A DNA stretch of 35,029 nucleotides. It comes from Bacteroidaceae bacterium (GTDB taxonomy: Bacteria; Bacteroidota; Bacteroidia; Bacteroidales; Bacteroidaceae). The stretch spans positions 1-35,029 of the forward strand of contig JAKSLI010000035.1 in NCBI GenBank assembly GCA_024401305.1, read 5' to 3'. The notes beneath the pieces were generated by a model that had not been told where the DNA came from, did not search any database, and saw only the letters and a list, made by a program, of their open reading frames with translations. Of this stretch, positions 4,292-34,391 are shown piece by piece. Each line of letters begins with the position of its first letter. Position 1 is the first letter of the stretch. Made by a program: the position numbers and the translations under genes.

Positions 4292-4310
4292 AGTATAATT
4301 TGAAAAGTGA

Positions 4311-4383
4311 AGGGCGAAGATTTCTGAGCCGTTTGTCCCCGGATTATGTTCATCACGGTTGCGGCTCGGAAATCCTCGCCCTA
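4311..4383 (-). repeat. ~72-bp inverted-repeat element, copy 1
   Basis: The arms AGGGCGAAGATTTCTGAGCC and GGCTCGGAAATCCTCGCCCT are ~21 bases each around a ~30-base loop. Read on the minus strand, the two non-Watson-Crick positions become G-U pairs, so the RNA form would be fully paired. A second copy with the same arms but a different loop lies at 34251-34321. The adjacent 4384-4450 stretch is low-complexity, with repeated TTTAGCC/CATTAGC words. Confidence 0.85.
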
Positions 4384-4474
4384 CTTTCTGGTTTTTGGTT
4401 TTTAGCTTTGGGCTTTTGGTTTTTAGCCATTACCCATTAGCCATTAGCCTTGCAACTGAGAACGGCTGCGAATA

Positions 4475-18970: not shown

Positions 18971-19134
18971 AAGCCCCCCTCTAACTCCCCCCCTAATGGG
19001 GGAGGACCTTAATTAGATTTGCTAATGAGGGGAAAAGGTCTAATTGGTTAATAATTAATTATAGTAATAGGGAACTACCTCACAAAGGTAATTGTAATCC
19101 CCCTCCCATAAGGGGGAGGGATGGGGTGGGGCTT
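18971..19134. repeat. Inverted pair of C-rich/G-rich palindromes between xynA and xynB
   Basis: AAGCCCCCCTCTAACTCCCC (from 18971, with GGGGGAGG soon after) faces GGGGGAGGGATGGGGTGGGG CTT (to 19134). Together they can fold the whole intergenic region into one hairpin. One end touches the xynA stop codon (19133-19135) and the other lies two bases from the xynB ATG. Confidence 0.8.
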
Positions 19135-31054: not shown

Positions 31055-34000
31055 TTATTGTTCTTTGCAACTTTCAATAAGCTTCTTGAATAGGTAATTC
31101 TTCGAGAGCAACTCCTTGTTACCCAATGCGATGAACTTCTTTCGGGCACGGGTTAATGCCACATTCAACTTTCGGTCTATCGGGCGATTGTTCTCGTAGA
31201 ATGTGTTTGCCGTAAGGAATCCGAGCTGGTGTTCCTTGCTTATCGTGAACGAATATATTATCACGTCGCGCTGACTACCTTGGTATCGCTCAACGGTGTC
31301 GATGCTTATGCGTGAATAATCTGCAATGCCGTACTTTTCGAGTTCACTGCGAACGGTTGCTATCTGGTTGCGGTAAGGCACGATGATGCCGACAGTCTTT
31401 CGCGGATTGAAACCATCAGAGCCATTCTTTTTAGCAGCTTCTTCATATTCCTTTCTGACCTCGTCAACGATTTTTGCAGCCACGATTGCTTCATCGATGT
31501 TTGCCTTGTCGTTGCCGTTTGTGTCGGTCTTCTTGATGTCATGGAAAAGCATTCTGCCACCGCTTTCCTCAAGCTGATGGGGTAGGGGAACAGGCTGAAG
31601 GTTCTCCTCTTTGTAGAAGTGTTCGTTGGCAAACTCTGCGATGTCCGGATGCATTCTGCCTTGCTTGCGGAGAAGTCCGATGAACTGTGTTCTGCCAGCC
31701 TTTCGTTCGATGTTTATGAGTCGTTCGAAGAGTGAGTTGCGGCAGTCGGTTAGGCAGATGTCGTTGAGTTCCTTGCTAGTGACTTTGCTTTCTTCTGGCG
31801 ATTGCTGAACAACGGCTGGAAGCTGCTTGTAGTCGCCGATAAGAACGAACTTGTCAATGTCCTGCGAGAGAATGCCGATGATGTTCGGCTCAAGGATTTG
31901 CGAAGATTCGTCGATTATGGCGAGCGAGAAATGCTTCAGCGTGAAGAGGTATGTGCGAGAGGATATTGTGGATGTTGTGCCGACAATGACTTTCGCATTA
32001 AGTATGTCTGCCTTGATGACTGCGAGAGAGGAGTTCTCGCGTGCCTTTATATTCAATAGATGTGGCAACCACTGTTCGTCAGTGGCAAACTCATTGCCGA
32101 TGCGAAGGAAGTCTATTCCTGCTCCGTCAAGCATCTCGCAGATTTCATCCACAGCGCGGTTTGTGTAGCTGAGAAGGAGTAAAGCGCCATCTGACCCCCC
32201 ATCCCCCCGAGGGGGAGTTTTTAATGTGATTATTTCGCTGCTTTTATATTTGTTTTCATCTGCAGAACTATTAAAAGTTCCCCCTTGGGGGGCTAGGGGG
32301 TCAAGACTCTCCTGCACCATGAACTTCAAGGCTTGTGAGGTCTTGCCTGTTCCTGGAGGTCCGATGAGTAGGAAGTAGTCTTTCGCTTGCTTCATGCGAA
32401 GTACGATGTCATCGTAATCTTCCGAATATGAGCGAGTTAGAGTTTTTGTAAGATCTGCTTGTGGCTCTCGTTGTCCGAGAATTAGTTCCTGTCTTTCCGG
32501 CTCTGCTTTGAGGAAAGCTGTAAGCGAACGAAGTGACGAAGATGTTGATGAGTTTGACGCAGAATGTTCTATTGCCCAGAATGTCTTTTCATCATTCTCA
32601 TTGTTTTGCGAAAGTTTGTCGAGATGAATCGGATTCTTCAGCGAAAGAACAATCTCGTCTGATGTCATCTTTATGATATTCGCCTTATGAAGGAAAGCCT
32701 TGCGAACATCAGGAATGTCTGTATATTGGTAAAGATAAACGCTGTCACCACGACGGAAGTTAGGGAGTGGCCCCCCAACCCCCCGAGGGGGAGTTGACCC
32801 CCCAGCCCCCGAAGGGGGAGTTTTTAATTGTTCTGTGCACTGATTCTTATGCAGCGAAAGAGTCATTTGAAGAGTTCCCCCTTGGGGGGCTAGGGGGTCT
32901 TTCTCCCCCTGGGGGGCTAGGGGGTCAGTTAGTGGCGCTAAGATATTTCCCGTATCAATCTTTTCTTCCAACGTCATCTTCCAAAGATAGGAAACTGCAG
33001 TGCTTTGCTCTGTGCTTTCGCCAAGCCATGCGGCACGCTGCTCACGATAGACGAAAGTTGCCATCGTGTCGAAATAAGCGTAGAGAAGTTTTGATACGAA
33101 AAGATTGTTGTAGATTGAGAACTGTTCCTCGAGTTGCGGACATTGGTAGTCTCTCCAAAGATTGCTTTGGCTGCGTTTCACGTTCACGACATCCGTTCTG
33201 AGCAGCGGACGGATCTTCCCAAAGCCCTTGTCGGCAACCATCAACTCTGTGGCTACGATTTGATTGCGCAGTTTCAGCGCTTCATTTATCAGTACTTCGT
33301 AATAGTCAACAGGCAGCAAACCCGTCGGCATCTCGTATTTTGAGTAGAGAAGGTAGAAGTCAATGTCTTCCCTTTTTACTCCGAAGTTGAAGTAAAGTAC
33401 TGAGAAATAAAGCAATAGCTGAACATAATGGCTTTCAACATGATAACCGATGTCGCTGATTCGTGAGTTTGCGAGATTGAAGTTCTTGCCGGATTTCTGT
33501 TCGATGAGCAACTTTAGGTCTGTTGTCATCATATCCACACGACCTTGCAAACCAAGAGCTTCGCAGACGAAAGTCGGTTCAAGAATTGCTTTGTCCAAAT
33601 CGTATTTCTCCTTCAATGCAGCAACAATCTCCTGGATATTGCTTGCCTGCTTGATGGCATCTTGCTTGAATTGGTTGCCGTTGAATTTCGGACAAGTGAT
33701 GAACTCCAGCGGTTGCGATTGGAAACATTGCGTAAGAACCTTAGCGAAGTTGAAACCCCTCCCAACCTCCCCACAAGGGGAGGGGTTGCTACCCGGACGG
33801 TTCTGTCCTCCCCCTTGTGGGGGAGTTAGAGGGGGTCTGGAGATTATCTCATCGAGCGCTGCACCAGCGTAATTACCGAGAAGAATAGGTTGCGATGTCT
33901 CTGGCTTGGAGAGTCTGCTAACAATGTAGTTCAGAGCGTGATGACCGTATTCCTTGAAGCAGCCCGCAATGGAAGAAATGTCAACAAGGAAGTCTGGTTC

Positions 34001-34231
34001 TACGATGATGTGCTGCGGAAAGACAACGGCATTCTCTATGAGCTGTGTGGCGTCGAGAATGTTAATCTGCATGCCCGACTTGAGAATCTTCTTCAGATAA
34101 AGAAACTGCCCGTCGCTGTAATCCACAACATATCGCTTCGCCTTTGCCTCATCGCCAGGAAGAGGAGAAGAAAAGCAATGGAGATATTGCGGTGTGATGC
34201 GTTCTATTATGAGTCGGAGTTTCTTTATCAT
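31055..34231 (-). CDS. Dna2-like helicase with N-terminal Cas4/PD-(D/E)XK nuclease domain
   Basis: The 1,058-residue protein combines a RecB/Cas4-type nuclease motif (~220-275: D233 in LQGRVDMM, E244xK246 in LIEQKSGK, Q271 in HYVQLLLYF) with a superfamily 1 helicase. Walker A is LLIGPPGTGKT (~618-628), motif Ia SYTNRAVDEIC, motif II IIDESSQI, motif III GDYKQLPAV, motif V RISIDTVERYQGSQRDV and motif VI NVALTRARKKF. Such proteins act in DNA end processing and repair. Three segments (about residues 132-158, 434-487 and 643-679) are proline/glycine-rich, not family-like, and are encoded by C-rich palindromic elements inserted in frame (see repeats). The third lies between Walker A and motif Ia. 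Whether the protein stays active is uncertain, but the frame and all motifs are intact. Confidence 0.88.
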   Translation of the reverse strand: MIKKLRLIIERITPQYLHCFSSPLPGDEAKAKRYVVDYSDGQFLYLKKILKSGMQINILDATQLIENAVVFPQHIIVEPDFLVDISSIAGCFKEYGHHALNYIVSRLSKPETSQPILLGNYAGAALDEIISRPPLTPPQGGGQNRPGSNPSPCGEVGRGFNFAKVLTQCFQSQPLEFITCPKFNGNQFKQDAIKQASNIQEIVAALKEKYDLDKAILEPTFVCEALGLQGRVDMMTTDLKLLIEQKSGKNFNLANSRISDIGYHVESHYVQLLLYFSVLYFNFGVKREDIDFYLLYSKYEMPTGLLPVDYYEVLINEALKLRNQIVATELMVADKGFGKIRPLLRTDVVNVKRSQSNLWRDYQCPQLEEQFSIYNNLFVSKLLYAYFDTMATFVYREQRAAWLGESTEQSTAVSYLWKMTLEEKIDTGNILAPLTDPLAPQGEKDPLAPQGGTLQMTLSLHKNQCTEQLKTPPSGAGGSTPPRGVGGPLPNFRRGDSVYLYQYTDIPDVRKAFLHKANIIKMTSDEIVLSLKNPIHLDKLSQNNENDEKTFWAIEHSASNSSTSSSLRSLTAFLKAEPERQELILGQREPQADLTKTLTRSYSEDYDDIVLRMKQAKDYFLLIGPPGTGKTSQALKFMVQESLDPLAPQGGTFNSSADENKYKSSEIITLKTPPRGDGGSDGALLLLSYTNRAVDEICEMLDGAGIDFLRIGNEFATDEQWLPHLLNIKARENSSLAVIKADILNAKVIVGTTSTISSRTYLFTLKHFSLAIIDESSQILEPNIIGILSQDIDKFVLIGDYKQLPAVVQQSPEESKVTSKELNDICLTDCRNSLFERLINIERKAGRTQFIGLLRKQGRMHPDIAEFANEHFYKEENLQPVPLPHQLEESGGRMLFHDIKKTDTNGNDKANIDEAIVAAKIVDEVRKEYEEAAKKNGSDGFNPRKTVGIIVPYRNQIATVRSELEKYGIADYSRISIDTVERYQGSQRDVIIYSFTISKEHQLGFLTANTFYENNRPIDRKLNVALTRARKKFIALGNKELLSKNYLFKKLIESCKEQ
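32193..32304. repeat. In-frame palindromic element, third insertion in the helicase
   Basis: The left end GACCCCCCATCCCCCCGAGG (GGGAGTTTTTAA) and the right end (ACTTTT/AGTTCCCCCTTGGGGGG CTAGGGGGTC) are inverted copies flanking ~50 bases. The encoded peptide includes DPLAPQGGTF and LKTPPRGDGG. Confidence 0.85.
32769..32926. repeat. In-frame palindromic element, second (doubled) insertion in the helicase
   Basis: Two adjacent left-type units at 32769-32822 face two right-type units at 32874-32926. The protein reads DPLAPQGEKDPLAPQGG on one side and LKTPPSGAGGSTPPRGVGG on the other. The doubling suggests an insertion next to or into an older copy, or local duplication. Confidence 0.85.
33754..33837. 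repeat. In-frame palindromic element, first insertion in the helicase
   Basis: AACCCCTCCCAACCTCCCCA CAAGGGGAGGGG faces TCCTCCCCCTTGTGGGGGAG TTAGAGGGGG around a short middle. It encodes RPPLTPPQGGG and SPCGEVGRG. The frame is kept. Confidence 0.85.
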
Positions 34232-34250
34232 AGTTTAATATAAAATCAGT

Positions 34251-34321
34251 AGGGCGAAGATTTCTGAGCCGTTAACAAAGGAATAGTTTCCAATGGTTGC
34301 GGCTCGGAAATCCTCGCCCTA
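34251..34321 (-). repeat. ~71-bp inverted-repeat element, copy 2
   Basis: It has the same arms as the element at 4311-4383 (AGGGCGAAGATTTCTGAGCC / GGCTCGGAAATCCTCGCCCT), with a different ~29-base loop. As with copy 1, it lies between two minus-strand genes, and only the minus-strand RNA has G-U pairs at the two imperfect positions. A TTTAGCC-rich stretch is again next to it (34341-34371). Confidence 0.85.
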
Positions 34322-34391
34322 CATTATTTAATTCGAAGTAAAGCCTTTAGCTTTTAGCCTTTAGCCTTTACCCTCGCTCAAAGAGCGAACT

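Follow-up and report, generated by a model that had tools for sequence, protein, structure and literature searches.

Palindromic repeats lie in frame in a Dna2-like helicase gene and in many other conserved genes of a Prevotella-like Bacteroidaceae genome

Contig JAKSLI010000035.1 of a Bacteroidaceae bacterium (assembly GCA_024401305.1), a stretch of 35,029 nt referred to here as the window, carries a gene for a Dna2-like helicase that contains three in-frame palindromic DNA segments. A profile built from the window protein and 19 homologues matched DNA2 (5eaw) best, with an E value of 8.7e-48 over the helicase half. A preliminary description of the sequence had proposed three in-frame palindromic insertions in this gene, one of them doubled, and this was borne out: the arms were mapped (Table 1) and the 1058-residue open reading frame (ORF) remains open. 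The insertions had been credited with roughly 118 residues; all three are real, and together they encode about 121. The recurring peptide words that had been listed (DPLAPQGG, PPLTPPQGGG and TPPRGxGG) are all present in the protein, and the insertion that had been placed between Walker A and motif Ia corresponds to insert 3, which is flanked by GPPGTGKTS (residues 623-631) and YTNRAVDE (residues 688-695).

Table 1. Positions in the window of the helicase gene, its three inserts and their arms
Feature	Position	Strand	Remarks
Dna2-like helicase gene, host of the three inserts	31055..34231	minus	1058 aa; ORF call and Pfam AAA_11/AAA_12
Insert 1, family B/C palindrome	33754..33837	minus	84 nt; residues 132-160; peptide RPPLTPPQGGGQNRPGSNPSPCGEVGRGF
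Insert 1 left arm, class C	33756..33780		
Insert 1 right arm, class B	33810..33835		
Insert 2, doubled family A pair	32767..32928	minus	two left and two right arms; residues 435-489
Insert 2 outer left arm	32769..32791		
Insert 2 inner left arm	32796..32818		
Insert 2 inner right arm	32877..32899		
Insert 2 outer right arm	32904..32926		
Insert 3, family A pair	32193..32302	minus	110 nt; residues 644-680; between Walker A and YTNRAVDE
Insert 3 left arm	32193..32215		
Insert 3 right arm	32280..32302		

The interiors of the two family A inserts of the helicase gene share sequence, oppositely oriented. Allowing up to three mismatches, the family A arm 23-mer matches the window at five places, against a mean of 0 in 100 dinucleotide shuffles. 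Folding of the single strand was better than in 200 of 200 shuffles for insert 1 (z -3.75) and insert 3 (z -6.27), each over its whole span, and for the inner pair of insert 2 (32795-32899; z -5.38).

Sixty-five helicase homologue ORFs were taken from fetched loci, and the insert sequence was absent from all 65 in this comparison, which had been proposed as a check. The segments were missing from 30 of the 30 homologues that were read in alignment with the window protein, and a scripted search of all 65 for seven insert words gave no match (64, 65 and 64 rows cover sites 1, 2 and 3, respectively). The median homologue lengths at the three sites are 17, 39 and 15, compared with 41, 65 and 49 in the window protein. 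Four homologues (L010, L011, L012 and L039) have loops somewhat longer than most at one or another site, two are longer than the window protein with unrelated sequence (L066 at site 2 and L014 at site 3), and L039, from MAG57, has a different loop, shorter than that of the window protein, at each of the three sites. The varied lengths of these loops indicate that the insert sites are length-tolerant. Scanning of the helicase loci of MAG57 and MAG59 revealed no such palindromic element. Other repeat-like or long extra peptides occur in the same loops of L010 (site 3), L034 (site 2), L066 (site 2) and L014 (site 3).

The helicase is one example among many host genes. The genome of the window (G000) is a 3.2 Mb draft in 115 contigs, 86% complete, and contains 170 half-sites: 69 of class A, 82 of class B and 19 of class C. 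Reversed-pattern controls in the same genome gave no match for any of the three classes. Facing orientation was found in 40 of the 47 pairs of neighbouring half-sites (less than 300 bp apart). Such inverted pairing, and the high copy number of short palindromes, are properties of repetitive extragenic palindromic sequences (REPs) and of the hairpin-forming pairs built from them (REPINs). Family A has the ends GACCCCC...GGGGGTC; its arms are conserved, and its middle varies in length. The family B/C unit measures about 80 nt; its arms are AT-rich, and its conserved centre, CCATCCGGATGG, recurs across unrelated genes. The element ends, (A)GACCCC...GGGGTC(T), form terminal inverted repeats, as in miniature inverted-repeat transposable elements (MITEs).

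The search for other genomic copies in open frames, also proposed in the preliminary description, was positive: 90 of the 170 half-sites lie inside 57 ORFs under a longest-ORF gene model, by which 0.87 of the loci count as coding. With a stricter rule (ORFs of 150 aa, with 20 codons on either side), 83 of 170 were retained. The families differ in this respect, with 70 of 101 class B and C half-sites inside ORFs compared with 20 of 69 for class A (Fisher p 4e-7), the remaining 49 family A half-sites lying outside or at the edge of an ORF. When half-sites were merged into 123 clusters, those inside ORFs were 48 of 71 for B/C, 12 of 45 for A and 5 of 7 for mixed clusters (B/C versus A, p 2e-5). 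Near-full-length B matches found with a profile lie inside ORFs in 22 of 26 cases, or 21 of 25 without a family A pair (L079) that had been mis-assigned to B.

The host genes include those for LpxB, SpoT, MurB, RsgA, TatD, RecN, a SufB/SufD protein, a tRNA pseudouridine synthase, an AcrB-type pump and asparagine synthase. Of 50 host ORFs scanned against Pfam, seven had no match. Two opposite ORFs overlap at L105, and one was excluded before matches were compared with insert positions; in the remaining 49, taking the best stretch only and coordinates transcribed by hand, the match spanned the insert in 17, lay on both sides of it in 7, on one side in 19 and on neither in 6, a count in which the helicase, RsgA and LpxB are scored as one-sided although other evidence exists for them. 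The inserts appeared as alignment gaps against solved homologues of RsgA, TatD, SpoT and LpxB; the alignment of the SufB/SufD protein with a solved structure had no clear gap at the insert.

The LpxB proteins of MAG57, G006 and G003 have no such inserts, and a fourth genome that was searched gave no LpxB match. The LpxB gene of the window's genome (L161, 1582-2982) holds two B copies that are identical at 85 of 89 positions and have 12 nt in common beyond one end only, which is the pattern that recent copying would give. The same gene also holds a third half-element and a short extra segment of seven residues. At L083 (1440-3812), a single ORF of 790 residues carries six half-sites and matches APH, the RapZ C-terminal domain and nucleotidyltransferase. 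Asparagine synthase has an insert in two genomes (G000, L102; G008, L201), in the interdomain linker in both, with differing local sequence. A further candidate arrangement, in which B/C copies outside ORFs split a gene in two, was rejected on five of the nine same-strand neighbour pairs around such copies: in four of the five the partners differ in domains, and in the fifth one partner is domainless. Family A has 15 further sites of this kind, which were left out. Among family A half-sites outside ORFs in G000, 26 ORF 3' ends lie in an arm or at most 5 nt from one, so that the stop codon may in many cases come from an arm.

The suggestion that the repeat is tuned to avoid stop codons was not upheld. 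Near-full-length B copies inside ORFs have on average 3.4 of six frames open, compared with 2.9 in dinucleotide shuffles, and the four B copies outside ORFs have 2.25 compared with 1.9; base composition therefore nearly suffices to account for the open frames of family B. The host genes read the B copies in at least three frames (12, 7 and 3 of 22 copies), as assigned by a rule that leans on C-run length and misplaces unusual C runs, the 22 including the family A pair at L079. Of 15 paired copies of family A, 11 have none of the six frames open; the two in the helicase gene (108 and 114 nt as cut) are open in two frames.

Related patterns were found in other genomes of the genus, a broad form of the motif being matched in 238 of 299, own genome included. 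The window's genome gave 248 raw matches, and only G085 (270), G122 (306) and G205 (255) gave more; in these raw counts some sites are counted repeatedly, and the reversed control reached 23 in one genome. Three genomes (G023, G008 and G028) were sampled at 20, 18 and 12 stretches, taken as the first-listed sites and not at random. G023 and G008 carry in-frame families of their own, separate from those of the window's genome. In G023 (56% complete), 24 of 37 half-sites lie inside 12 ORFs, and in its main family nine of nine paired copies inside ORFs encode PLS-PEG-T...APSGAVGGA or close variants in one frame; the DNA of eight G023 pairs was examined. Ten of these 12 ORFs were scanned and all ten had domain matches, among them TyrRS, LeuRS (with two elements) and BipA; the inserts are gaps relative to solved TyrRS and BipA. 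In G008 (90% complete), 14 of 23 half-sites lie in 14 ORFs, and all ten ORFs scanned had matches at E 1e-3 or better, that of L188 being below the family cut-off.

These sequences are probably high-copy, non-autonomous palindromes of the REPIN or MITE kind, whose copies inside genes persist where the frame is open and the loop is tolerated. Elements of two facing arms would have spread through this Prevotella-like genome, entering both intergenic DNA and genes, presumably by transposition of a hairpin. A copy in a gene would persist if the host's reading frame runs through it unbroken and the protein can accommodate a loop there; the host protein would then gain a Pro/Gly-rich segment, 29 to 55 residues long in the case of the helicase inserts. 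The segments are likely to be translated and may be near-neutral, and mobilisation by diverged REP-associated tyrosine transposase (RAYT; Y1/HUH) proteins is conceivable. The observation made in the preliminary description is confirmed, and its interpretation is partly supported.

Several results weigh against this explanation, in addition to those on the mobiliser given below. Gene membership was called from open ORFs and is biased toward in-frame copies. Of the 15 half-sites in G028, 2 are inside ORFs and 13 are outside. Neither a target-site duplication nor an empty site in the same species was seen, and the nearest empty site, in LpxB, is too diverged in DNA. Intragenic B copies, with profile match length standing in for true element ends, are spread over all three modulo 3 length classes (6, 6 and 10), as are arm-to-arm lengths. 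A single fixed modulo 3 length class was accordingly rejected, and insertion of a fixed length does not by itself explain why the frame is kept; selection among insertions, variable ends and later small indels are the alternatives.

The variable lengths would also be expected if the elements insert everywhere and full-length palindromes are then lost by deletion from intergenic DNA, copies in genes being kept since most deletions there shift the frame. The preference of family B for genes would then be only apparent. This course of events is possible but less likely than not: near-full-length B matches are inside ORFs in the proportion given above, whereas 31 of 101 B/C half-sites are outside. 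However, sister family A retains paired copies outside ORFs, which argues against a general erasure of intergenic palindromes. It is very unlikely that the segments are missing from the proteins through ribosomal bypass of the hairpins or through RNA processing. The hairpins are indeed strong, but bypass does not require an open frame, and yet the inserts counted are open (in a count biased by calling genes from open frames); moreover, the domains resume in frame beyond the inserts. Local slippage at C/G runs or assembly error, with no mobile repeat at all, is likewise very unlikely. The genome is a draft in 115 contigs, and G/C runs are error-prone, but neither cause would be expected to give unrelated genes a consensus with AT-rich arms and a common centre, arrange the half-sites in facing pairs or produce separate families in other assemblies.

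The identity of the mobiliser was addressed through RAYT-like proteins. Two ORFs (L075 and L076) have the motifs PDHLH and DNPRRL and pass the Pfam Y1_Tnp cut-off narrowly (28.2 and 23.9 versus 23 bits); they fall below the NCBIfam RAYT cut-off (38.3 and 35.9 versus 80). Their family is present in 29 of 60 genomes, own included. Across 36 same-genus genomes, element copy number rises with the number of RAYT-like loci (rho 0.56, p 4e-4; 0.52, p 0.001 without the own genome), in a correlation that ignores kinship among the genomes and for which loci were merged by eye at E 1e-10 or better (G002, G005 and G025 being counted as having none). Generic PF01797 was rejected as a marker of the mobiliser (rho -0.05 with copy number). 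All 20 RAYT loci were scanned for flanking elements, an earlier motif filter having recognised nine of them; none had an element within 300 nt and two had one within about 1 kb. The RAYT flanks were therefore rejected as the source of the repeats. On C87, a B half-site lies 316 nt from the RAYT, inside a neighbouring GH3 gene. RAYT involvement in moving the elements is thus a lead that may hold but is on balance somewhat doubtful, and it is the weakest step of the explanation. A transposase other than RAYT could be responsible, with a chance a little short of even: the flanks of the RAYT loci are consistent with it, as are G003, G004 and G026, which have 14, 20 and 31 raw matches and no RAYT-like match, whereas the rise in copy number with RAYT-like loci speaks for RAYT. 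Several diverged RAYT-like loci in G000 (on C34, C36, C72, C85, C87, C88 and C91) are palindrome-free within 300 nt.

The elements work like Rickettsia palindromic elements (RPEs) and like REPINs. The parallel with the protein-coding palindromes of Rickettsia that had been drawn for this Bacteroidota sequence is supported, and extends to dozens of genes and to other species of the genus. As with RPEs (PMC2229807 and PMC3733652), palindromes of more than one family occur in frame in conserved genes and in intergenic DNA; here, in-frame insertion into conserved protein genes is seen in the 57 ORFs, with domains spanning or flanking the insert in 24 of 49 and with homologues that lack the inserts. 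The elements here have sequences of their own, and their units differ in length (about 80-110 nt here, 105-146 bp for RPEs in PMC2229807); the phylum is another one, the families are species-specific within one genus, and the likeness is drawn from descriptions of RPEs. PMC2229807 also records RPEs in 19 reading frames and a guanylate kinase that is active with its insert.

REPINs and REP dimers resemble these elements in their high-copy facing pairs and, according to PMC3733652, in copies that lie within conserved genes, those for DNA repair among them. That paper describes REPs in genes of O. terrae, Thauera, R. conorii and other organisms, a good many of them DNA repair genes, and lists further cases of coding palindromes. 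Families A and B nevertheless fall outside REPs in two respects: no GTAG or CGTC end tag was found on either, GTAG beginning only a separate family D, and the RAYT genes are unflanked by the repeats. The arms of the elements here are C5/G5 blocks. The Correia elements of Neisseria, as set out in PMC2229807, have a 107 bp form that is open and intragenic and a 155 bp form that is closed and intergenic, much as families B and A do here; the ends differ (GACCCC here, TA in Correia), and this likeness too is by description. For Bacteroidetes, PMC6006769 describes TnpA-REP subclass 2.6, with atypical REPs, and subclass 2.4, with REPs inserted inside their own tnpA-REP genes; these are likewise RAYTs of Bacteroidetes, and they differ from the RAYT-like proteins found here, whose motifs are PDHLH and DNPRRL.

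The best-known cases of protein-coding palindromes come from obligate intracellular bacteria, in which weak selection readily accounts for them. Here they occupy dozens of conserved genes (SpoT, LpxB and RsgA among them), with TyrRS, LeuRS and BipA in a same-genus genome, and sister families differ in gene occupancy, so that whether the inserts are neutral, costly or used becomes a testable question. No report of coding palindromes in Prevotella was found in the literature searched, subscription papers being mostly outside its reach. Pro/Gly-rich 'variable loops' annotated in these genomes can be mobile DNA. Family B and its same-genus counterparts might even be palindromes adapted to life inside coding DNA, although this is tentative and rather unlikely. 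B is in genes far more than A and the G023 family is read in a single frame, and each species would therefore have its own vocabulary of inserted peptides; the elements would then keep supplying new protein segments in a genus of many species.

Other C/G-run palindromes resembling the inserts lie in the window at 18974-19131 and 2630-2659, mostly intergenic by the ORF list. Family D, a third palindrome (GTAGGGCGAGGATTTCCGAGCCG...), has 24 arm matches genome-wide. It occurs in the window at 34249-34322 and 4309-4384, one pair being directly upstream of the helicase start, and copies are nested between paired arms at C51:30711-30785 and C55:22100-22169.

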